From the IMG/VR virus record IMGVR_UViG_3300037341_000246, positions 1 through 26,510 of that record: a DNA stretch of 26,510 nucleotides; one strand, written 5' to 3'. This DNA comes from a virus. The translations under genes were made by a program, and so were the position numbers. The notes under the pieces are model-generated. The model saw only the letters and a program-made list of their open reading frames with translations. It ran no database searches and was not told where the DNA came from. Within the stretch, counting starts at the first letter, position 1, and the number at the start of each line of letters is the position of its first letter. Below are positions 1 through 15,756 of this stretch, piece after piece.

Positions 1-603
1 TACATCGATCCTGCCAACCGTCCCAATCAAGCGACCTTTCAATGCGTTAAGTGCGGACATACCGACCACGCCGATACTAACGCCTCTAAAAATATTTTGC
101 TGCGTGCCACAGACGCTTCAGGGCGCAACAGTTTGCCCTTCGCAAGAAGCTACCGCCCTTGGGGGTGGGAAGTCAAGCCTGTTTCCGGTGGAGACGCGCC
201 ATCGGGTGAGATTTGCATTAGCGAATCGAAGACACAGGAAGCCGCGCCTTCTACTGTTCTCCTAGACGGCGATCGCAACGGCACCAAAGCCCGAGACATG
301 GCATCCAATCTGGAGAACACCTCTCAAAACCATTTCAATCGACCCGAGAAACGCGCGACACAGGAGGTGTTTGGGGTTTGGGAGATTGCAAGTGGCGGAA
401 CGCCTTCAAACAAAGCATCTCAAACCCTTGCCCCGCTTGGGATAGACCCACCTGCAACCTCAGACGAGATCCGCGCAATCCCTGAAACTCCCTTCCAGCA
501 ACCGATCCAGCCCGATTGTAAGAAGCGATCGTCCTCGTCGCGACCGCCGAACTCCGGATCGGCGGCTGGAATCCAGTTAGAGCTTCCGCTTGACTGGGGG
601 TAG
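1..603 (+). CDS. tnpB: TnpB (IS200/IS605-family RNA-guided nuclease), C-terminal part
   Basis: The reading frame is open from the first base, so the gene starts outside the window. Seen: the first 35 residues hold a zinc-ribbon half, CVKCGH, followed by DHADTNASKNI, the usual end of TnpB, which includes the third RuvC acidic residue. Family knowledge: TnpB is a transposon-encoded nuclease guided by an omega-RNA that overlaps the 3' end of its gene. After about residue 80 the translation stops looking like TnpB. It runs on through a degenerate CRISPR-like repeat, read as VFGVWEIAS, and stops with TAG at 601-603, where the first intact CRISPR repeat begins. I infer that the native stop was lost or that the end was rearranged. 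Without the N-terminal part I cannot say whether the nuclease is intact. Confidence 0.8.
   Translation, partial: YIDPANRPNQATFQCVKCGHTDHADTNASKNILLRATDASGRNSLPFARSYRPWGWEVKPVSGGDAPSGEICISESKTQEAAPSTVLLDGDRNGTKARDMASNLENTSQNHFNRPEKRATQEVFGVWEIASGGTPSNKASQTLAPLGIDPPATSDEIRAIPETPFQQPIQPDCKKRSSSSRPPNSGSAAGIQLELPLDWG
311..332 (+). repeat. Left copy of a 22-bp degenerate repeat bracketing the CRISPR array
   Basis: This stretch begins TGGAGAACAC and ends CAAAACCA. It matches 885-906 at 20 of 22 positions. Its second half resembles the reverse complement of the 5' half of the CRISPR repeat (AAAACCATTTC). The two copies lie on either side of the array. Confidence 0.6.
373..392 (+). repeat. Isolated 3' half of the CRISPR repeat
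   Basis: These 20 bases are identical to the last 20 bases of the 37-bp CRISPR repeat, ending GATTGCAAG. They lie inside the tnpB reading frame, 210 bp before the first intact repeat. The 210-bp gap is not a whole number of repeat-spacer units, and I see no further repeats in it, so this is a displaced or eroded copy. Confidence 0.7.
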
Positions 604-858
604 TCGAAATGGTTTTGGAGGGGTTTGGGAGATTGCAAGAATGCTGGCGAGTGCTAACGGCGAGAAAACGACCAGTCGAAATGGTTTTGGAGGGGTTTGG
701 GAGATTGCAAGAATCCTCCAAATATAATGCCCCCAGATTATAGAAATGTCGAAATGGTTTTGGAGGGGTTTGGGAGATTGCAAGAAGGTTTCGCTGCTGG
801 CGTCGCCAGGTGTCGGGAGCGGTCGAAATGGTTTTGGAGGGGTTTGGGAGATTGCAAG
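603..858. CRISPR. Short CRISPR array: four identical 37-bp repeats, three spacers
   Basis: Intact repeats lie at 603-639, 675-711, 748-784 and 822-858. Each begins GTCGAAATGG and ends GATTGCAAG on the plus strand, with no mismatch among them. The spacers (640-674, 712-747, 785-821) are 35, 36 and 37 bp long and differ from each other, which is typical CRISPR geometry. The repeat has little internal dyad symmetry. Orientation is uncertain; read on the minus strand it starts CTTGCAAT, which resembles the 5' end of several cyanobacterial repeats. No cas1 or cas2 lies in the window. The only Cas6-like gene here is at 7915-8541 and may process this array. Confidence 0.9.
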
Positions 859-7914: not shown

Positions 7915-8541
7915 TTAGGGGGGATTACAGGCTTTAAAAACTCCTCCTCCAATTCGCCTGCGTCCGCCAATCCCGTAGGTCTGTAGACTGAGAGATTCTT
8001 TGGGTTCTAAAGTTCTGAATTCAACCGAAAATCCCTTAGTTAGCTCTCCTCGAATGTGGAACGAAACTTTCTTCCCCAAGAATGGCGTGCTTTCAACGTT
8101 CAGTGCTTTCATTTGCTTGCCAAGGGTGACCCCAAATTCAAAAGGAAGGGGTTCTCCCCCACGCTTGCGAGCTTCAACCTGAGCAAAGGTCACGACGCGA
8201 GAGGATAGGGTCGATTGCGGCACGATCGGCTCGCCCTCAACACTCCCTAACTGAATCAGCGAAGTTCCGACACGGATGACCCGATCGCTCATGGCAGCGA
8301 CCAGCTCGGGAACCCGATCGCTTGGCGAGCGAAGGTGCAGGCGACTACCTGGGTGCAAGAAGAGCGATCGCCCGCCATAATCGCCATTAATCCCGCCCAG
8401 TTGCCAGTGCCAATCGCGATCGACTTTGAGGGGCGGGTAAATGGCAACCAACCCAGAATAGAGCCAATATTGATAATCTGCGGGAATCGAATATCCCTGT
8501 ATCTCCCAGTAGAGATCGACTGGGGGTGTGGTAATTTCCAT
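7915..8541 (-). CDS. cas6: Cas6-family CRISPR RNA endonuclease (Cmx6-like)
   Basis: A 208-aa protein, near the usual Cas6 length. Seen: the N-terminal DLYWEIQGYSIPADYQYWLY, SRLHLRSPSDRVPEL and VPQSTLSSRVVTF blocks fit the Cas6/Cmx6 family. The C-terminus carries the glycine-rich RAMP loop GIGGRRRIGGGVF at residues 190-202. Family knowledge: Cas6 cuts CRISPR transcripts within repeats and often stays bound to the crRNA handle. The gene is divergent from the cas11-csf2-csf3 set, with only 68 bp between the starts, so both may share a control region. Type IV-B loci normally lack cas6. The intact array at 603-858 is the only substrate candidate seen here. A catalytic histidine cannot be assigned with confidence. 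Confidence 0.85.
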   Translation of the reverse strand: MEITTPPVDLYWEIQGYSIPADYQYWLYSGLVAIYPPLKVDRDWHWQLGGINGDYGGRSLFLHPGSRLHLRSPSDRVPELVAAMSDRVIRVGTSLIQLGSVEGEPIVPQSTLSSRVVTFAQVEARKRGGEPLPFEFGVTLGKQMKALNVESTPFLGKKVSFHIRGELTKGFSVEFRTLEPKESLSLQTYGIGGRRRIGGGVFKACNPP

Positions 8542-8609
8542 CGCTTTGCAGCTAGTAGAGAAGGACTAGAGGTGTGGTAGAGTGTAGGATAGCAGATTAT
8601 CTCAAATAA
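8542..8609. promoter_or_regulatory. Divergent intergenic region between cas6 and the csf operon
   Basis: These 68 bp must hold the 5' signals of both cas6 and the cas operon unless they are read from further away. I see no strong consensus promoter and no good Shine-Dalgarno sequence before the ATG at 8610. The sequence just before that ATG (ATTATCTCAAATAA) is AT-rich. No TCTAA-NN-TTAGA palindrome is present, so these cas genes are not obviously in that regulon. Confidence 0.4.
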
Positions 8610-9260
8610 ATGCCATCACAAATTCCCCGATTTTATGGAATAACAGGTGCGCCCAACCCTGGATACGGCGCACTTTCGGCAATAATTGCCGCCGCCTATC
8701 TTTGCCGCAATCGCACGCAGTCGCAACTCAACGACCCCCTAAAACGATGGGAGCGCCTACCTGGATTGATTCGGGATGCCGCGAGCAAGGCTGACCCTGA
8801 TGCGCCAATGGAATCGTTTGTGTCAAACCTTTGTCGGCTCGCTAACGCTCCAGGTATTGCCCCCCGCGCTCTGAATTGGATTGTGCGCGGCGACCCAAGC
8901 CGCCCAGTTTTTTCCTGTCACCTTCCCAGTAGCGCGCAAAGCATAGGAGAGGCAATCCCAAAACCCGTGACGGAAGATGACTTGCCTCGTGCTTTTGGAT
9001 ATCAGCGCGATCGTGATGGCATTCAAACTGACGAACTCATCGAGCCGGACGACGCACAATATCTCGCCGTAGGAAACTTCTCGGTTCTTGCACATGATGC
9101 GTGCAATCATATGGGTTGCACGCCATTTGACTTAGTGGAATCCGCTCGCGAGCAATATCACGCGATCGCCACTTTTGTCCGCCTCAAAATTGAGGAGTCC
9201 TCGGCTTTGAAGCAATCCGAACCCGAACTCGAAACTATAGAAGTTGTTCCTAATTCCTGA
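8610..9260 (+). CDS. Candidate type IV small subunit (Cas11-like), first gene of the csf operon
   Basis: A 216-aa, mostly helical protein that I do not recognise by sequence. It begins PSQIPRFYGITGAPNPGYGA and has helical stretches at about residues 18-35, 45-75 and 165-200. Its TGA stop overlaps the ATG of csf2 by one base, so the two are translationally coupled. In type IV-B loci the gene directly before csf2 is usually the small subunit cas11, and length and helicity fit. The call is therefore positional. The N-terminal GITGAPNPGYGALSAIIAAA stretch is unusual for a plain small subunit, so an unrelated ancillary protein is possible. It has no nuclease motif and no zinc-binding cysteines. 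Confidence 0.45.
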   Translation: MPSQIPRFYGITGAPNPGYGALSAIIAAAYLCRNRTQSQLNDPLKRWERLPGLIRDAASKADPDAPMESFVSNLCRLANAPGIAPRALNWIVRGDPSRPVFSCHLPSSAQSIGEAIPKPVTEDDLPRAFGYQRDRDGIQTDELIEPDDAQYLAVGNFSVLAHDACNHMGCTPFDLVESAREQYHAIATFVRLKIEESSALKQSEPELETIEVVPNS

Positions 9261-10504
9261 TGGCTAAAAAGAAGAAAACCCAATCTCTCGATCTCCCCCA
9301 TTTCGACTTCGATCTCGGGCAACGGCGTCGAATTAGCTTCATCATACGATTGAAGCTTACCGCCCCTCTGTCCCATATTATGCCCGTAGTGAATGCTGGG
9401 AATCGCAGTGCATTCAATAAAATAGGCGTGGTTGGTCTTGACGGTCGTCCGACAGAGGTTCCTATCTTATCAAGCGCCTCATTTCGCACGCTTTGTTTGC
9501 GCGAGGCGGGAATCGGTAAAACGCTGGAAGCCCTGCAAATCCAAGTCCCAAAAGACGTCCACAATACTTTGTTTAGCGGTGGGTTTGCTAGTGCGGGGGA
9601 TAGCAATGAAAATAACATGGAGCTTTACGAACAACTAGAACGCTATTTCGCCCCCCTCGCCGTTGTTGGGTGCTGCAAACCCGCTGGCGTGTTTGGTAGC
9701 GGAAAAACTCAATACGTTCATGGGCAAATAGACATTGGGCATTTTTATTTGAAATGCTTTGAATCCGCAACGCTTTTGCCCACGCGATTTTTGGGAGAAG
9801 AAGAAGTCGAAGCAATTGCTGAACTTCGACGAGACAAGGCGGCGCTCGATCGACTCAGAAGCCCGGATGGATTCAGAGATGTTCTGATTGACGGATCTAA
9901 TGATGAAAAAGCCCAGCATCGTATTGCGCGGCGAGAATATCAAGAAAAACTAACGCAATATTCTGCTTTGATTCGCCGCAAGCTCCCCCCTTATGGTCGA
10001 TGGTTGGCTGATTATCATTTCACCCGCAGAGACGCGGGTGAAAACCCAAAAATTAAACACCTTGTTGCCGAGCCTGCTGCTCCTCTTCTTGAGGCTGAGG
10101 CGTCTGCTCCCAGTCCCAAAAAGACTAAAGATACGAGCAAGATGATCGCCTCATCGGAGGTTGCTGTGGCGGGAGCAGAATTTGTGAGTCAATGGCACTC
10201 CGTGCCAATGGGAATCACTGAGGTTGGTCTAGGATTTATTGCCTTTGCTTTTAGCGAGTTCTCAAGTCACCCTGCCGTTGGTGGCCAGGCGGCACGAGGT
10301 GCGGGCGGATATCCTGAAATCGATGTCTGGCACGCGATCGATGGCGAGCCGCAGGGCTTATATTTGAGTGCGAGTAACAATACTCAGCATTTTAGCCCTC
10401 AAGCCGAACAAGACTTGCAGCGATATCTCAATTATCTTGACCGCTATCGCGACTGGCTGGCAGAAGCCGCCGAACCTGCTCGGGCATTCCTGGGGGCGGG
10501 TTGA
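9260..10504 (+). CDS. csf2: Csf2 (Cas7-like backbone subunit, type IV)
   Basis: The 414-aa protein is a RAMP of the Cas7 type. Seen: an N-terminal strand IRLKLTAPLSHIMPVVNAGN followed by EVPILSSASFRTLCLREAGI, the order found in Csf2, where a TPL-His strand precedes a P-x-[LI]-S-x-x-x-[FL]-R helix. Later it has VGCCKPAGVFGSGKTQYVHG and a glycine-rich FSSHPAVGGQAARGAGGYPE loop. Family knowledge: Csf2 polymerises along the guide RNA to form the backbone of the type IV complex. It is longer than typical Csf2, and residues about 272-295 (with APSPKKTKDTSK) look like a disordered insertion. The gene overlaps its neighbours by one base on both sides (TGATG junctions), a tight operon. Confidence 0.75.
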   Translation: MAKKKKTQSLDLPHFDFDLGQRRRISFIIRLKLTAPLSHIMPVVNAGNRSAFNKIGVVGLDGRPTEVPILSSASFRTLCLREAGIGKTLEALQIQVPKDVHNTLFSGGFASAGDSNENNMELYEQLERYFAPLAVVGCCKPAGVFGSGKTQYVHGQIDIGHFYLKCFESATLLPTRFLGEEEVEAIAELRRDKAALDRLRSPDGFRDVLIDGSNDEKAQHRIARREYQEKLTQYSALIRRKLPPYGRWLADYHFTRRDAGENPKIKHLVAEPAAPLLEAEASAPSPKKTKDTSKMIASSEVAVAGAEFVSQWHSVPMGITEVGLGFIAFAFSEFSSHPAVGGQAARGAGGYPEIDVWHAIDGEPQGLYLSASNNTQHFSPQAEQDLQRYLNYLDRYRDWLAEAAEPARAFLGAG

Positions 10505-11286
10505 TGGAGTTTTTGTCCGTATCTTGCGAGCTTCAGTCCCCTCTCGGGGTGACGGACGATTGGAGTCCCGATCTCGGAGCGCTGCTAGAAAGATTGTGGT
10601 GGGATGTTCATGGAATTCCCGGCGACAGCAACCTCGTCTCCGCCCCCACTCTGCGCCATGCGCCGATCCCGCTAGCATGGGGCGTGCTGCGATCGCCGAA
10701 CAAGACCGATCCACAAGGACTCGCAACTGAATGGGACGACCCCCGCCCGCGCGCCGACTTGCCTGCTGATTGGCATTGGTGTTCGAGTAGTCCGATATAC
10801 CGTTACAGTCACCACACCACCCAGCCAATTCGCCGCGCATGGCGACCGCAGCGAACCCGGCACTTGTTGCTCGACGATGGAGCAAAATGGAATAGCTCGT
10901 CGGGAAATTATAAATCCTACGATTTGCAAGCCCCCGGACGCTGCCTCGACTCGCCAATCCGCTGGCATTGCGTTGGCAATCGAGATGGAATTGCCGAGCT
11001 TTTATCTTATTGTTCGGCGATCGGGCGCAATCGCAAAGCGGGACAAGGGCAAATCCGTCCGGGGAGTTGGCGCATCGAACCTGTTGAGCGAGATTTTAGC
11101 TTGCTCAGCCCGCAGGGGGCGATCGTTCGCCCCGTCCCCGTTCGATTGGGAGAGACCTATGGGATAATCCGAACTTGGTGCTGGCGACCGCCAGGAACGC
11201 TTAGGGAATTTGCGGAGCCGTGCTGGATGCCTCAGATCGTTCGCTTCGCCCCGCCGATTTCCCCTGTGTCGGAGGTTTGGCAGTAA
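10504..11286 (+). CDS. csf3: Csf3 (Cas5-like subunit, type IV)
   Basis: A 260-aa Cas5-type RAMP. The ATG at 10504 is chosen over the TTG one codon earlier because it overlaps the csf2 stop in a TGATG junction. Seen: an N-terminal strand FLSVSCELQSPLGV, the block RHAPIPLAWGVL at about residues 58-69, and a C-terminal glycine-rich loop AIGRNRKAGQGQIRPGSW, followed by RDFSLLSPQGAIVRPVPVRL. This matches the Csf3 layout, in which a G-x-x-R-x-x-G-x-G loop precedes a W and a short arginine-proline segment. Family knowledge: Csf3 caps the 5' end of the guide RNA. The stop is followed at once by the IscB element, so transcription into cysH and csf1 may now be interrupted. Confidence 0.75.
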   Translation: MEFLSVSCELQSPLGVTDDWSPDLGALLERLWWDVHGIPGDSNLVSAPTLRHAPIPLAWGVLRSPNKTDPQGLATEWDDPRPRADLPADWHWCSSSPIYRYSHHTTQPIRRAWRPQRTRHLLLDDGAKWNSSSGNYKSYDLQAPGRCLDSPIRWHCVGNRDGIAELLSYCSAIGRNRKAGQGQIRPGSWRIEPVERDFSLLSPQGAIVRPVPVRLGETYGIIRTWCWRPPGTLREFAEPCWMPQIVRFAPPISPVSEVWQ

Positions 11287-11517
11287 ACTACCCGCCACCA
11301 AGCTACAGCTATGGTGGGGGCTTTTAAAGCCCAGAGTTTACCAGGCTAGGTGTTAACTCACTACGTTACGAAAGTCAGGATACCTAAGAATGCGTAGCCA
11401 GTTTTTAGCTCTATCGCTTGCGATTAAACAGGCATATCGGGTCGAAGCCAGTGTCGTAAGCAAGACAAGCTTTCGTAACATTGCCAAGGCTAACATTACC
11501 CGAAAGGAGACTCATTC
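11287..11517 (+). ncRNA. Predicted IscB omega-RNA region
   Basis: The 231 bp before iscB have no gene and have strong local structure. CCACCA at 11295-11300 pairs with TGGTGG at 11312-11317, with AGCT/AGCT continuing the stem, and GGGCTTTTAAAGCCC at 11318-11332 forms a second hairpin. Family knowledge: IscB is guided by an omega-RNA transcribed from directly upstream, with the guide at its 5' end taken from the DNA left of the element. Here the guide would come from the last bases of csf3. The exact RNA ends cannot be read from the sequence. Confidence 0.7.
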
Positions 11518-12804
11518 GTGAGTAAAGTTTTCGTCTTAGATACAAACAAACAGTCTCTTAATCCTGTCCATCCAGGTAGAGCAAGAATGCTGTTATCTCA
11601 AGGGGAAGCCGCTGTATTTCGTCAGTATCCCTTCACGATCATTTTAAAAAAGGAGGTATCGAACTCAAAAATTGAACCACTCAGAATCAAGATTGACCCC
11701 GGTGCAAAAACTACTGGATTGGCAGTTGTTAACGACAGCACTGGGGAAGTCATCTGGGCAGCAGAATTGCAGCATCGTGGTTTTCAGATTAGGGAGGCTT
11801 TAACGTCTCGTCGTCAACTACGACGCTTACGCCGTAACCGCAAAACCCGTTACCGTAAGCCGCGTTTCCTTAACCGCACCCGCCCAAAAGGATGGTTGTC
11901 GCCGTCTCTTAACAGTCGAGTAGCTAACATTCTGACTTGGGTTAAGCGCCTATCATCACTGTGTCAAATCACTGCCATTTCTCAGGAATTGGTGAGGTTT
12001 GACACCCAACAGATGGAAGATGCCGAGATTAGCGGGGTCGGCTATCAGCAGGGAACCTTGGCGGGTTATGAGGTACGCGAGTTTCTCTTAGAGAAGTGGG
12101 ATAGAACCTGTGCCTACTGTGGCGCAAAAGACACCAAGCTTGAAATTGAACATATTCAACCTCGGTCTAAAGGTGGGTCTAATCAAGTCAGCAATCTGTG
12201 TTTAGCTTGTACTTCCTGCAATCAGAAAAAAGGGAATCAAGATATCAAGGATTTCCTGAAAGGTAAGCCCGACTTGTTTAAACGAGTCTTGGCACAAGCC
12301 AAAAGACCTTTGGCTGATACAGCAGCAGTTAACGCAACTCGATGGAATCTGTACGAAAACCTCAAGAAAACAAGCTTACCTGTTGAGGTTGGCACAGGTG
12401 GACGTACTAAGTACAACCGCACTATCCGAGGCTTGGAGAAGACTCACTATTGGGACGCTGCCTGTGTTGGCGTATCAACCCCAGAGCAGTTAATCACGAC
12501 AGGGATTAAGCCCCTCTTGATTGCTGCCAAAGGTCATGGAACTCGTCAGCAATGTCGCACAGACAGATACGGGTTCCCAGTTCGTTATTGCTCTAGAACC
12601 AAATTCCACAAAGGTTTTCAGACAGGTGACCTCGTCAAAGCGGTTGTCACTTCTGGCAAAAAGATTGGAACTTATGTTGGTCGGGTCGCTACTCGTGCCA
12701 CTGGAAGTTTCAATATCTCAACACCTAATGGGCTGGTTCAAGGCATCAGCCACAAATATTGCACACACATTCACAAAAAGGATGGATATTCCTATGCCAA
12801 CTAA
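11518..12804 (+). CDS. iscB: IscB RNA-guided nuclease (RuvC-HNH)
   Basis: The 428-aa protein is complete and looks active. Seen: an N-terminal PLMP-type segment (SLNPVHPGRARMLLSQGEAA, residues 13-32), RuvC-I with Asp60 in IKIDPGAKTTG, an arginine-rich bridge helix (residues 98-117), RuvC-II with Glu157 in ISQELVRFD, an HNH domain at about 195-245 with Cys198/Cys201, His212 in EIEHIQPRSKGG, Asn226 and Cys231/Cys234, and RuvC-III with His310 and Asp313 in THYWDAACVG. Family knowledge: IscB is the likely ancestor of Cas9 and cuts double-stranded DNA guided by the omega-RNA. The start is GTG at 11518, with AAAGGAGACTC upstream. The gene separates csf3 from cysH. Confidence 0.97.
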   Translation: MSKVFVLDTNKQSLNPVHPGRARMLLSQGEAAVFRQYPFTIILKKEVSNSKIEPLRIKIDPGAKTTGLAVVNDSTGEVIWAAELQHRGFQIREALTSRRQLRRLRRNRKTRYRKPRFLNRTRPKGWLSPSLNSRVANILTWVKRLSSLCQITAISQELVRFDTQQMEDAEISGVGYQQGTLAGYEVREFLLEKWDRTCAYCGAKDTKLEIEHIQPRSKGGSNQVSNLCLACTSCNQKKGNQDIKDFLKGKPDLFKRVLAQAKRPLADTAAVNATRWNLYENLKKTSLPVEVGTGGRTKYNRTIRGLEKTHYWDAACVGVSTPEQLITTGIKPLLIAAKGHGTRQQCRTDRYGFPVRYCSRTKFHKGFQTGDLVKAVVTSGKKIGTYVGRVATRATGSFNISTPNGLVQGISHKYCTHIHKKDGYSYAN

Positions 12805-12832
12805 GTGCTGTCCTCCGTTTCCTCCTCCACTA

Positions 12833-12847
12833 ACCGCGAATCGCGGT
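12833..12847. repeat. Right-end hairpin of the IscB element
   Basis: ACCGCGAATCGCGGT is a near-perfect hairpin 29 bp after the iscB stop, followed by GGGGGTCTCCACGGGGG. Such hairpins mark the right ends of IS200/IS605-type elements. Confidence 0.6.
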
Positions 12848-12876
12848 ATAGATGGGGGTCTCCACGGGGGAAGAAG

Positions 12877-13596
12877 ATGAACGCAGTCGAGCGACATGGA
12901 TTTCTGACTCATGCTCGAACGAAACGATTTGCACGAAAAATCCGGCAAGCCCACGAAGTTATCGCCGAGGCATTGAAACTTGCTCCGGCTTTCGTTTCCC
13001 TGAGCTGGGGAAAAGATAGTACGGTGCTTTTGCACTTAGCTCAACAAATCAATCCAAATATTTTGGCGGTTCATTTTTCTACACCATGCCAAAACCTTTT
13101 GGAAGACTATTCCGGGATAGAGAAAGCCTATTGCAATCGATTCCCGACCAACCTCAAGACTGTTGATATTGGCATGGAAATCACCTTGCCTGAAGCAGTA
13201 CGGAGGCAATTAATCTGGCAATCTCACCCTGTCGCTTTGACAGGAATGCGGGCAGAAGAAAACCCCGGCACGCGAGGGAAACACCTCAAAAGTCGTGGGT
13301 TAATTGTTCCTTACAAATCCCCTGAATTAAAAGGCGTGACTGCTGCCCATCCTTTGGGATTTTGGTCGTGGCAAGACGTATGGGCTTATATCTGCGATCG
13401 CGATCTTCCTTACTTACCAAGCTATGACGAGACTTTCATCCACAAATCTCGTAGCCGAACGACCAACGTAATGCCGTTTCTTGGCAACAATTCAGCATCT
13501 CAAAGGCTTGGTAGAATAGACCGAATGAAAATGGAGTCACCAGAAGCTTATGCCTTTTTACAGCAATACTATCCCCACGTCGTTGGCAGCTATTGA
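12877..13596 (+). CDS. cysH: CysH-like PP-loop ATPase, type IV-B ancillary protein
   Basis: A 239-aa protein from the ATG at 12877, which has GGGGGAAGAAG just upstream; the longer frame from 12805 translates transposon-end sequence. Seen: the PP-loop SLSWGKDSTVLL at residues 41-52, a later TGMRAEENPGTRGKH block that fits the PAPS-reductase-like fold, and HPLGFWSWQDVWAYI. The Glu-Cys-Gly-x-His motif needed by sulfonucleotide reductases is missing, so ordinary sulfate reduction is unlikely. Family knowledge: a cysH-like gene accompanies most type IV-B CRISPR loci, with unknown function; PP-loop enzymes adenylate or thiolate their substrates. The ribosome-binding site abuts the IscB right end. 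The gene end overlaps the cupin gene by 47 bp if the cupin uses its first ATG. Confidence 0.85.
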   Translation: MNAVERHGFLTHARTKRFARKIRQAHEVIAEALKLAPAFVSLSWGKDSTVLLHLAQQINPNILAVHFSTPCQNLLEDYSGIEKAYCNRFPTNLKTVDIGMEITLPEAVRRQLIWQSHPVALTGMRAEENPGTRGKHLKSRGLIVPYKSPELKGVTAAHPLGFWSWQDVWAYICDRDLPYLPSYDETFIHKSRSRTTNVMPFLGNNSASQRLGRIDRMKMESPEAYAFLQQYYPHVVGSY

Positions 13597-13948
13597 TCCA
13601 AGCCAGTACCGCGATCGCGCGCCATCCTCCGTCCCCGGTGCCCCCGATGCCACCCTGATCGAGATTGGGTTGGATGCTGACGGGAACCAAATCAACTTGG
13701 TACGGGTTTGTCCGTTCGGGATAATCCCAAATCATACCCATACCTGTGCTAGCGGTATGGGTATTACTGCGGGTTCCGCAGTTGCCACGGGTAAGGAGGG
13801 CGGAGATCGGCAGGTTGGGGTGGGGGATTATATCTTTAAACCCCCCGGCCAAGCGCACGGCTTTCGTGCAGGGTCTCAGGGACTAGAGTTCTTGAGTATC
13901 AGCGATGGCGAGGGCATTGTAGGCGATCGTTGGGATATTGAATATTAA
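13550..13948 (+). CDS. Single-domain cupin protein
   Basis: The 132-aa protein has both cupin motifs: PNHTHTCASGMGITAGSAVA (His-x-His in motif 1) and GDYIFKPPGQAHGFRAG (motif 2, with Pro-x-Gly-x-x-His). These residues would bind a metal. The start is uncertain: ATG at 13550 lies inside cysH, and a TTG near 13583 is possible. The stop is one base before the ATG of csf1, so cupin and csf1 are surely co-transcribed. Cupins include dioxygenases, sugar enzymes and small-molecule sensors, so no reaction can be chosen. Its position between cysH and csf1 makes it a possible extra component of this CRISPR module. I know of no standard type IV locus with a cupin. Confidence 0.85.
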   Translation: MPFYSNTIPTSLAAIDPSQYRDRAPSSVPGAPDATLIEIGLDADGNQINLVRVCPFGIIPNHTHTCASGMGITAGSAVATGKEGGDRQVGVGDYIFKPPGQAHGFRAGSQGLEFLSISDGEGIVGDRWDIEY

Positions 13949-13949
13949 T

Positions 13950-14708
13950 ATGGCTTGCCACCTCTGCGCTCATCCCGACGCGCCGCACCCTCTCAGCATC
14001 GGTAAAGACTTTACCGCCCGCGATCAGTGCTTGAGACCGGACAGCAAGATGATGTGCGATCGCTGCTTTGACCTGATTGCGGGGCGCTATCAATACGCCT
14101 GGTATTGGAATGAGGGGAAGCAAAAATGGTCGCGGATCTTCACCCGCAATCCGAAATACTGGCTGCTGCGCGACCCCCGCGACCTTGAGAGCCCCCGCAA
14201 CCGCCCCTACTTTGGCGCGCTGCGAGATGAGGGCAAAGGCGAGTGGCATGAGCTTTGTGCGATGCCCAGCTACAGGGATGCGCGCGAGTGGCTACTGAAC
14301 CCCCCGGAACCGCCATTTTGTCTGGCGATTGGGATAAGTGGGCAAAAGCACGTCTTGCCTTTTGCCCAGGAAGCCCGCAGCCGCGACTATTTCCCCGTTC
14401 AAGTCGAGACTGAAGCGGTTTGGATCGATCGAGATGAGATCGCGCGGCTAATCGAGAAACTAGAGCTTTTGCTGGCAGCGGGCTTTTCTAAGAAAGAAAT
14501 TTCCGCGTGGGAAAGGCAGCCTTATCCTCGATCTGCCAAAGCGAATCTACTCTGGATAAGCTACGATTCGGAAATGCGTGCGTTCAAGGCTTCGGGGCTG
14601 TTCGATTTAGCGTGCCTGGTGTCCGTTCGCCCCGAACTTTTAGAACCCAAGTCCGATCCCGAACCCGAACCTCAATCCTTGCAACCCTCGCAACTCAGTT
14701 TATTCTGA
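13950..14708 (+). CDS. csf1: Csf1 (type IV large-subunit-like, zinc finger)
   Basis: A 252-aa protein from ATG 13950, one base after the cupin stop. An in-frame TTG at 13938 is rejected because it adds only four residues inside the cupin gene. Seen: a zinc-binding pattern with Cys3/Cys6 and Cys36/Cys39 around the FTARD block, then PFCLAIGISGQKHVLPFAQE at about residues 123-142, followed by YFPVQVETEAVWIDRDEIAR and LLAAGFSKKEISAW. Together these fit Csf1, the signature protein of type IV CRISPR-Cas, which has a FT-D zinc finger and a serine-glycine-K-H block. The C-terminal 30 residues are an acidic, proline-rich tail ending QLSLF. In most type IV-B loci csf1 lies near csf2; here an IscB insertion and two genes separate them. 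Confidence 0.75.
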   Translation: MACHLCAHPDAPHPLSIGKDFTARDQCLRPDSKMMCDRCFDLIAGRYQYAWYWNEGKQKWSRIFTRNPKYWLLRDPRDLESPRNRPYFGALRDEGKGEWHELCAMPSYRDAREWLLNPPEPPFCLAIGISGQKHVLPFAQEARSRDYFPVQVETEAVWIDRDEIARLIEKLELLLAAGFSKKEISAWERQPYPRSAKANLLWISYDSEMRAFKASGLFDLACLVSVRPELLEPKSDPEPEPQSLQPSQLSLF

Positions 14709-14838: not shown

Positions 14839-15756
14839 ATGAAAATGTCAGACAAGCTTAACCAATTTGAAGGAGAAATCGAAGTCTCTCGGCGTTTGCC
14901 CTTCTGTTGGGTCGTCAACCCGCCCAACATGAAGACGACCGACATCAAAAAAATAAACCCCCCCTATGGGGTATTTGTCCCTGCTGAACAAGCCGAAGCG
15001 GCGCAACTAAATGCAACCTCCGCATTCGAGCCGACGGAAATAACGTTCGGCGAGGAGGAAAACACCAAGGTGGGGTTTCTCGTCAAAAAAATTCGATGCT
15101 GCATCCTGCATCGCTCCCCACTATATGTCCAGGCGCTCTCTCCGAATGGGGGCTGGGCGTATGCGGGGGTTGCATACCAAAAAGGGCAAATCACAGAACT
15201 TGGAATTAAAGCCCGTGATGAGCAGGGATATCGGCTGCGCTCTAACTATCTACTGTGCTTTCTCGATGGAAGTAATAAGTTGCTTAATTCTATCCCCATT
15301 AAGTTGACCCTCGGGAAGGGGCCCGGCGCAGGGATCTCAAACGAGGTGACTTCCTTCCGGAAGGAAATCGAGCGGGTTTTCTTCAAGCTCAAAGGATTGC
15401 CGGAACAGCGGTTGTCGGATCGGGCACACGCATTATGTGTCCTCGATTTGGAGCTGGGCTTTCACAAGAGCGAGGGACACGCACCCTTTGTTTGCCCCAT
15501 TAAGCGGCTCGCGCCTGCTATCGACCAAGTGGGCAAGAAAAAGAAGGTGGCGCGGCGCGAGCGCGAGGTGGAGCTGGAGGGTGTTGACATAAACTCTTTG
15601 ATTGTCGCCAAAGATTCCGAGGAGGGACAAAAAATCCTTCAGCTTTGGGAAGAATATAAAGATTATTTCTCAGGGCTGGCAACCCCTCCTACTCAGGAGC
15701 AACCGCTGCCTGAGTCTGAGTTCGGAGAAGATGACATTGACGATGATTCATTTTAA
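14839..15756 (+). CDS. DUF5895-like protein
   Basis: A 305-aa protein with AGTAGGAAAA before its ATG. It resembles the cyanobacterial DUF5895 family, although I recall the match only in outline: an N-terminal LPFCWVVNPPN, then PYGVFVPAEQAEAAQL, a GFLVKKIRCCILHRSPLYVQ block at about residues 76-95 and a central beta-rich core. The last 60 residues include a lysine-arginine cluster (KKKKVARRERE) and a strongly acidic tail ending DDIDDDSF, as in proteins that contact DNA or partner proteins. The gene follows csf1 but has its own promoter and palindrome, so it is probably a separate transcription unit. It ends three bases before the convergent LysM gene. Function unknown. Confidence 0.7.
   Translation: MKMSDKLNQFEGEIEVSRRLPFCWVVNPPNMKTTDIKKINPPYGVFVPAEQAEAAQLNATSAFEPTEITFGEEENTKVGFLVKKIRCCILHRSPLYVQALSPNGGWAYAGVAYQKGQITELGIKARDEQGYRLRSNYLLCFLDGSNKLLNSIPIKLTLGKGPGAGISNEVTSFRKEIERVFFKLKGLPEQRLSDRAHALCVLDLELGFHKSEGHAPFVCPIKRLAPAIDQVGKKKKVARREREVELEGVDINSLIVAKDSEEGQKILQLWEEYKDYFSGLATPPTQEQPLPESEFGEDDIDDDSF

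Follow-up and report, generated by a model that had tools for sequence, protein, structure and literature searches.

A cas6-bearing relative of type IV-B CRISPR modules on viral contigs and a Gloeobacter plasmid

The module and its setting

The window (the whole stretch of DNA that we analyzed) is the 26,510-bp contig IMGVR_UViG_3300037341_000246 from IMG/VR, which is a virus record and not a host genome. At positions 7915-14708 it holds a type IV CRISPR module (CRISPR is short for clustered regularly interspaced short palindromic repeats) with csf1, csf2, csf3, a cas11-like gene and a cysH-like gene of the PP-loop type, together with a cas6. We found that viral contigs and a Gloeobacter plasmid have this gene set in common, with its members side by side, and from the sequences we propose that the module is a new, cas6-bearing variant related to type IV-B. 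An earlier note, made from the letters of the window alone, had listed cas6, csf1, csf2, csf3 and the cysH-like gene, and Pfam and PADLOC profiles identify all of them; the list overlooked an IscB element and an overlapping cupin-like gene.

The cas6 gene (7915..8541, minus strand) is of the Cmx6/I-B lineage (Pfam PF09559, E = 7.9e-33) and is divergent to the csf operon, whose genes are all on the plus strand. These are the gene for a cas11-like small subunit (8610..9260), csf2 (Cas7; 9260..10504; PADLOC typeIV_Cas7, E = 5.5e-26), csf3 (Cas5; 10501..11286; typeIV_Cas5, E = 2.8e-28), the cysH-like gene (12877..13596; Pfam PAPS_reduct, E = 1.3e-12), the cupin-like gene (13550..13948; Cupin_2, E = 5.2e-5, under the Pfam cut-off), which overlaps both cysH and csf1, and csf1 (13938..14708; typeIV_Cas8, E = 1.6e-21), which encodes a large-subunit-like protein with two CxxC pairs. 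The frame of the cysH-like gene is open from 12805, and we set its start at 12877 by homology (41% identity to the Gloeobacter copy). All of the module's frames are open, and several of them overlap in an operon-like way.

We consider cas6, csf1, csf2, csf3 and the PP-loop gene to be firmly assigned. The earlier note had proposed profile searches as a check, and the PADLOC profiles indeed place Csf1, Csf2 and Csf3 in type IV. The match of Csf1 to NCBIfam cas8u_csf1 (E = 2.8e-11) is under the family's cut-off, and Csf2 and Csf3 are also under their NCBIfam cut-offs. When a profile of the Csf2 family was compared to the PDB, the best match was the IV-B Csf2 of 7jhy (E = 1.2e-7), followed by the Cas7c of 11fs (E = 2.5e-7) and by 8rc2 (E = 1.6e-4). 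The assignment of the cas11-like gene is weak and relies on its position and on PADLOC typeIV_Cas11 (E = 0.0064). A profile of its family matches a gene in one of nine ordinary IV-B loci (Rhodovastum, same position, E = 5e-8), and a profile-profile comparison (hhalign) to six IV-B Cas11 candidates gave 2.5%. The predicted model of the protein is poor (predicted local distance difference test, pLDDT, of 62) and had no fold match at E = 0.001.

In the CysH-like protein, the PP-loop motif S-x-G-K-D-S is invariant in 13 rows aligned by eye, and we saw no invariant C-terminal cysteine in these rows. A PP-loop without the reductase cysteine is given as a criterion for the CysH-like protein of IV-B (PMC8175902). 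Nine records (L011-L015, L033 and L036-L038) encode a more distant PP-loop protein in place of cysH, with the canonical SGGKDS.

The marks of other type IV subtypes did not appear among the ten proteins that we compared to Pfam and PADLOC, in a record that is a fragment: we found no DinG helicase, which is the mark of IV-A and which the earlier note had also reported as lacking, no RecD-like helicase (the mark of the variant labelled IV-D), and no other helicase family. The remaining frames of the window were compared to PHROGs, with no helicase among the matches listed. There was also no match among the ten proteins to the HD/Cas10-like large subunit that marks IV-C; Csf1 is present instead. 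Aside from the inserted IscB, no helicase or nuclease subunit was found among the module's own proteins.

As the earlier note had described, the module lies inside a tail gene cluster. PHROGs families of a contractile-tail phage (sheath, tube, baseplate wedge, neck and endolysin) are around it, among the matches listed (25 of 37 families in a scan of the window's frames). Among annotated sheath proteins, the closest to that of the window are from Nostoc and Anabaena phages (YongM, 37%; A-1(L), 34%), and that of Cyanophage N-1 is among the nearest. The host of the window's virus is probably a cyanobacterium, and the virus-borne contigs with this module are probably cyanophages in part.

Retention and exchange of cas6

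To relate the window to other loci, we relied on Csf2. In viral contigs, a query with a single Csf2 sequence gave no match, and queries with two-row and five-row alignments did find relatives. A Csf1 scan gave no match, and a phage collection had no relatives of Csf2. Among plasmids, the window's Csf2 matched one record and the Gloeobacter Csf2 matched three, two of them weakly. A genome scan added one further locus, and of 386 cyanobacterial genomes, one matches at full strength and one more at E = 6e-4. Thus the gene set, which the earlier note had suggested seeking elsewhere, recurs in viral contigs, in a Gloeobacter plasmid and in a Spirulinaceae metagenome-assembled genome (MAG; L022).

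A cas6 lies beside csf2 in 14 of the 15 records of this Csf2 family (the window, L005, L011-L016, L022, L032, L034 and L036-L038). The exception, L033, is a contig that begins just 263 bases before cas11. Because several of the records are near-copies (L011-L015; L036-L038), we count about nine lineages behind the 15 records, eight of them with cas6. The first members (the window, L005, L011, L014 and L016) served to build the profiles, with L022 added for some genes, and they therefore match by construction. In the Spirulinaceae MAG, cas6 is a fragment at the edge of the contig and is divergent, as in the window. When whole virus records were searched with PF09559, eight of nine had exactly one cas6. 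The outcome that the earlier note had named as speaking against it, with cas6 part of a separate system that csf-bearing relatives lack, did not occur, as these relatives do have cas6. Furthermore, the position of cas6 varies by lineage: it may be upstream and divergent, upstream on the same strand, or after csf2, csf3 or cysH. This suggests that cas6 has been retained, beyond mere inheritance with one layout. The same Cas6 profile found nothing in nine ordinary IV-B loci (L007-L010 and L017-L021, some of them incomplete), in a search that is blind to other kinds of Cas6.

In the plasmid pGMOR1 of Gloeobacter morelensis, tblastn showed the genes as one run, cas11-csf2-cas6-csf3-cysH-cupin-csf1, with 27-41% identity to those of the window (the cupin aligned over 71 residues only). 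We found no Cas1 in eight module records, so new spacers, if any are gained, would need the host's machinery.

In a tree of Csf2, the 11 rows of the family form one clade (support 93/99; 91% of bootstrap trees), which adjoins IV-B. The nearest row is the IV-B Csf2 of Rhodovastum (93/96), and the clade is apart from the IV-A and RecD-type rows (one long-branched row each). The window's Csf2 is divergent, with a long end branch (2.26). The Csf3 tree agrees with this, as the family is on one side of a branch that separates it from nine IV-B rows (85/94; 98% of bootstrap trees), with the exception of a very long, unlabelled RecD-type row that is unplaced inside.

The Cas6 proteins of the modules, in contrast, are not one clade. 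A single clade of the 10 module rows, in a tree with 19 genome-derived rows, was rejected by the approximately unbiased test (p-AU = 5.2e-8). (We counted L061 as a module row, as the protein that it encodes differs hardly at all from the first part of the Spirulinaceae Cas6.) On the starred branches of this tree, at least two changes between the module and genome labels are needed, with the direction not given by the tree. The window, the Spirulinaceae MAG, L011/L014 and L032 are together (100/100), and a second group with 100/100 support joins L034 and L036/L038 to seven genome-derived rows. The module rows L005 and L016 fall among other genome-derived rows, with long branches and weaker support. 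Because Csf2 is one clade and the module Cas6 is not, we conclude that the effector was inherited as a unit and that cas6 was exchanged independently of it. The exchange of cas6 with other CRISPR loci, as opposed to inheritance of one Cas6 from IV-A, also disfavors an intermediate between IV-A and IV-B. Thus, the tree of Csf2 that the earlier note had called for groups the family with IV-B, and its proposal of a stage between IV-A and IV-B is not upheld.

The module shares Csf2, Csf3 and the CysH-like protein, by homology, with all three of the IV-B plasmids that we compared (Rhodococcus jostii pRHL3 and plasmids of Thermococcus nautili and Rhodovastum), and Csf1 is homologous by profile in two of them. 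(We assigned the IV-B label to these plasmids from the gene set csf1-cas11-csf2-csf3-cysH.) The module differs from IV-B by its cas6, by the cupin-like gene of four lineages, by arrays on five of eight long records, and by its location, mostly on viral contigs. We do not file it under IV-B because the description of IV-B, as given in PMC8175902, contains no cas6. The 2025 classification has three type IV subtypes, with most IV-B and IV-C loci lacking arrays (PMC12669027). In the literature searched, whose scope did not extend to two key type IV papers, we met with no account of a IV-B system that has cas6.

Virus-borne IV-B is known from "Fuxiviridae" viruses of Bathyarchaeia, which have a CysH-like gene and a mini-array of two repeats and one spacer; these are archaeal viruses, and the term cas6 is absent from the main text of that report (PMC10848311). 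A IV-A plasmid from Shewanella (L083) and a RecD-type plasmid from Thermoanaerobacterium (L085), so labelled by our reading of their annotation, resemble the module in having a type IV core, cas6 and an array. Unlike the module, they have a gene for a helicase-type or AAA ATPase where the module has cysH, and their Csf2 is outside the module clade.

Arrays and other RNA-guided elements

The window has an array at 603..858, about 7 kb from the module, with four identical 37-nucleotide (nt) repeats and three distinct spacers of 35-37 nt. The array reported by the earlier note is thus real and in the right place; it might serve the module, but it abuts a TnpB-like C-terminal frame (1..603, plus strand; PHROGs transposase, E = 4e-6, residues 6-39) that is cut by the end of the record and that ends at the first repeat. 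With up to 3 mismatches allowed, the 29-nt core of the repeat was found in none of the 386 genomes of cyanobacteria. Against 50,697 phage records, the array stretch gave a single 27-nt match (E = 0.3), and against plasmids it gave no match at E = 0.1. Cyanophage N-1 also carries an array with 37-bp repeats (five repeats and four spacers, with no significant spacer match); as described, that array has no cas genes (PMC4916379). Two similar 27-nt stretches (306-332 and 880-906) flank the window's array, with parts of the repeat in mixed orientation; these are perhaps remnants of an insertion.

Arrays are present in five of the eight module records of at least 26 kb (the window, the viral contigs G003, G004 and G391, and pGMOR1), and except in the window they are tens of kb from the csf genes. 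A single criterion was used throughout, on most of six further phage contigs and on nearly all of the remainder of pGMOR1 as well. It found arrays in the IV-A and RecD-type control plasmids, none in seven shorter module records, and none in 12 ordinary IV-B loci. We do not use these 12 loci as a contrast, which would be unfair: their stretches are 6.6-20.7 kb, and the arrays are mostly tens of kb away. The array of pGMOR1 (L109), when inspected by eye, has seven repeats of 36 nt plus an eighth that is degenerate; the spacers differ, with one doubled, which overturned the idea that these are repeats within a coding sequence.

The phage contig G004, which has portal, capsid and tape-measure genes, provides the best link between the module and an array. 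The repeat of its array recurs in two degenerate copies, 71 nt apart, where csf1 begins, and the second copy runs over the first codons of the gene. They have 8 and 11 mismatches of 36, as compared to 12 for the best of 200 shuffles. The effectors of G004 among the PADLOC matches listed (25 of 43 families, 68 frames) are type IV and TnpB-like (Cas12f models), along with one profile labelled Csx1.

An annotated transposase of pGMOR1 ends where the array begins. In G004, a frame at a distance of about 270 nt from the array shares 25% identity with this transposase over 249 residues, and two frames match OrfB_IS605. In G391 (L075 12170-15603), an iscB gene and two HEARO RNAs lie in between CRISPR repeats, and some spacers are just 9-21 nt. 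In G003, a phage-like contig, the type I-E genes cas6e, cas7e and cas5e lie beside an array (L066 2210-4609), and Cas1 was not found in the record. We dropped the two arrays of G003 as support for a link to the module, as the I-E genes adjoin one of them.

The window has an IscB element of its own. A HEARO RNA, or omegaRNA (11283..11499, plus strand; Rfam RF02033, 147.7 bits, full model 1-211), starts at the stop codon of csf3 and is followed by iscB (11518..12804, plus strand; NCBIfam guided_IscB, E = 1.2e-141). Together with a small palindrome 3' of iscB, the element (11283-12865) sits exactly between csf3 and cysH, whose frames are intact on either side; it resembles a homing-type insertion that spares both genes. 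Given the known layout of IscB omegaRNAs, the guide here would be copied from the end of csf3.

We also compared the arrays to those of possible hosts. Of 14 stretches around genome-derived Cas6 genes, 11 hold arrays. Four phage repeats were no more similar to these genome repeats than shuffled sequences were (at 7.0, G004 just equals the maximum of the shuffles), and with the window's core absent from the cyanobacterial genomes, a host origin of the phage repeats is not supported. As for the spacers, when 28 of them (at least 26 nt) were compared to the loci of this analysis, the best had 7 to 17 mismatches. Phage matches of array stretches from G003 (one of two, E = 0.3) and G391 (one of several, E = 0.01) were weak, as was that of the window. 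A search of viral contigs with 26 nt of one G003 spacer led back to G003 and to no other record.

In L012 (5794-6190), and also in L011 and L013-L015, the csf operon is preceded, at a distance of about 3 kb, by a run of short hairpins that number 4 to 11. Their period is mostly 36-39 nt, with a stem (GCCCCAC..GTGGGGG), approximately TGAGTC, and then 13-15 variable nt. The stem matches the 36-nt array repeats of G003, and the run looks like a miniature array.

Possible roles of the module

The reading that we favor, with our confidence evenly balanced, is that the module is a class 1 effector of IV-B descent, borne by mobile elements and equipped with its own Cas6. Cas6 would produce guide RNAs by cutting transcripts that contain repeats, whether these come from arrays of the element, from the host or from both, and the guides would be loaded on a filament of Csf2 and Cas11 with Csf3 and Csf1. 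The complex would then bind nucleic acid that matches the guide, in rival elements or in the host, and block it without cutting, and the CysH-like and cupin proteins might work on the complex itself or on its bound target. A role in conflict with other elements or with the host is suggested by analogy to work on type IV-A (PMC11656645). In favor of this reading are the cas6 that accompanies the csf genes in 14 of 15 records and in varied positions, the single PF09559 gene in eight of nine virus records, the lack of a match to the Cas6 profile in nine ordinary IV-B loci, the place of the Csf2 clade beside IV-B (with Csf3 in agreement), the arrays on five of eight long records, the degenerate repeats and the listed effectors of G004, and the lack of Cas1 in eight records. 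The earlier note's suggestion, a type IV variant with guide processing retained, is supported for the gene content and for its conservation (14 of 15 records), and for function it is a proposal.

Several observations weigh against this reading. The window's repeat folds poorly and forms a stable hairpin on neither strand. Three of the eight long records (G002, G393 and G394) have no array by the same criterion. No convincing protospacer was found, in searches of phages, plasmids and viral contigs that left aside the spacers of pGMOR1 and G004. Every array adjoins another RNA-guided gene: a TnpB-like gene in the window, the Gloeobacter plasmid and G004; an IscB (52% identical to that of the window), along with two HEARO RNAs, in G391; and cas6e-cas7e-cas5e at the first of the two arrays in G003. 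The degenerate repeats of G004 coincide in part with reading frames, and coding sequence could have given rise to them by chance. The PADH motif of Cas6 proteins is where the catalytic histidine is expected, and in our alignment the window and the Spirulinaceae MAG have tyrosine at this position and L036-L038 have asparagine; the Gloeobacter form has histidine. However, the loss of this histidine does not prove that Cas6 is inactive: the closest solved Cas6, from type I-B (8fcj; profile E = 1.6e-56), has asparagine at the aligned position, although it is part of a different effector complex. From the motif, activity of the window's Cas6 can be neither claimed nor denied. Finally, a solved IV-B complex bound heterogeneous RNA, as reported for IV-B of Mycobacterium (PMC8175902).

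It is possible, though rather doubtful, that the module instead hijacks the host's CRISPR RNAs: a host-derived Cas6 would process or hold the host's precursor transcripts, the complex would remove or disarm the host's guides, and the element's own arrays would be incidental. The scatter of module Cas6 among cyanobacterial genome-derived Cas6 (the rejected single clade) fits repeated matching to hosts, the three long records without an array also favor this explanation, and both the scavenging and the sponging of guides are among the proposals for IV-B in PMC8175902. On the other hand, the four phage repeats are unlike the genome repeats near Cas6 and the window's core is in none of the 386 genomes, which are tests of the phage repeat and not of what Cas6 binds. 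We think it unlikely that the arrays, and perhaps Cas6, serve the TnpB-like, IscB or I-E neighbors while the IV-B-like complex works without guides from arrays. That each array adjoins such a gene, and that the arrays of G003, G004, G391 and the plasmid are so far from the csf genes, argue for this separation; yet cas6 stays with the csf genes and away from the arrays, degenerate repeats lie at the start of csf1 in G004, and the window's IscB has a complete HEARO RNA of its own. A chance assembly or a decaying remnant, with cas6 and the csf genes together in a dying module, might account for the divergent Csf2 of the window. This is very improbable given the open and overlapping frames, the same gene set in a plasmid at 27-41% identity, and the recurrence of the set across records.

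We would tentatively go further and suggest, with less than even confidence, that a IV-B-like lineage of cyanophages and plasmids repeatedly captures Cas6 from its hosts, so that a complex without a nuclease is refitted to repeat RNA from its own arrays, from those of TnpB, IscB or I-E neighbors or from the host. Such a Cas6-capturing Csf complex would follow its host, either as a weapon guided by RNA or as a thief of guides. The RNA cargo of the IV-B complex and the role of CysH are described as open questions (PMC8175902, PMC11656645). A branch that keeps Cas6 offers a specific RNA substrate that could be cut, which makes the question of guides directly testable. In any case, relatives of IV-B exist on viral contigs, at least some of them probably of cyanobacteria, and cas6 can be exchanged independently of the effector, which bears on the ways in which mobile elements acquire components of host immunity.

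Two neighbors of csf1 deserve mention. The cupin-like gene is beside csf1 or cysH in four lineages (the window at 13550-13948, L005, L032 and L034), and its product is possibly a new partner of this system. Directly 3' of csf1 in the window is a DUF5895 gene (14839-15756), and a member of the same family is found in the phage contig G004.

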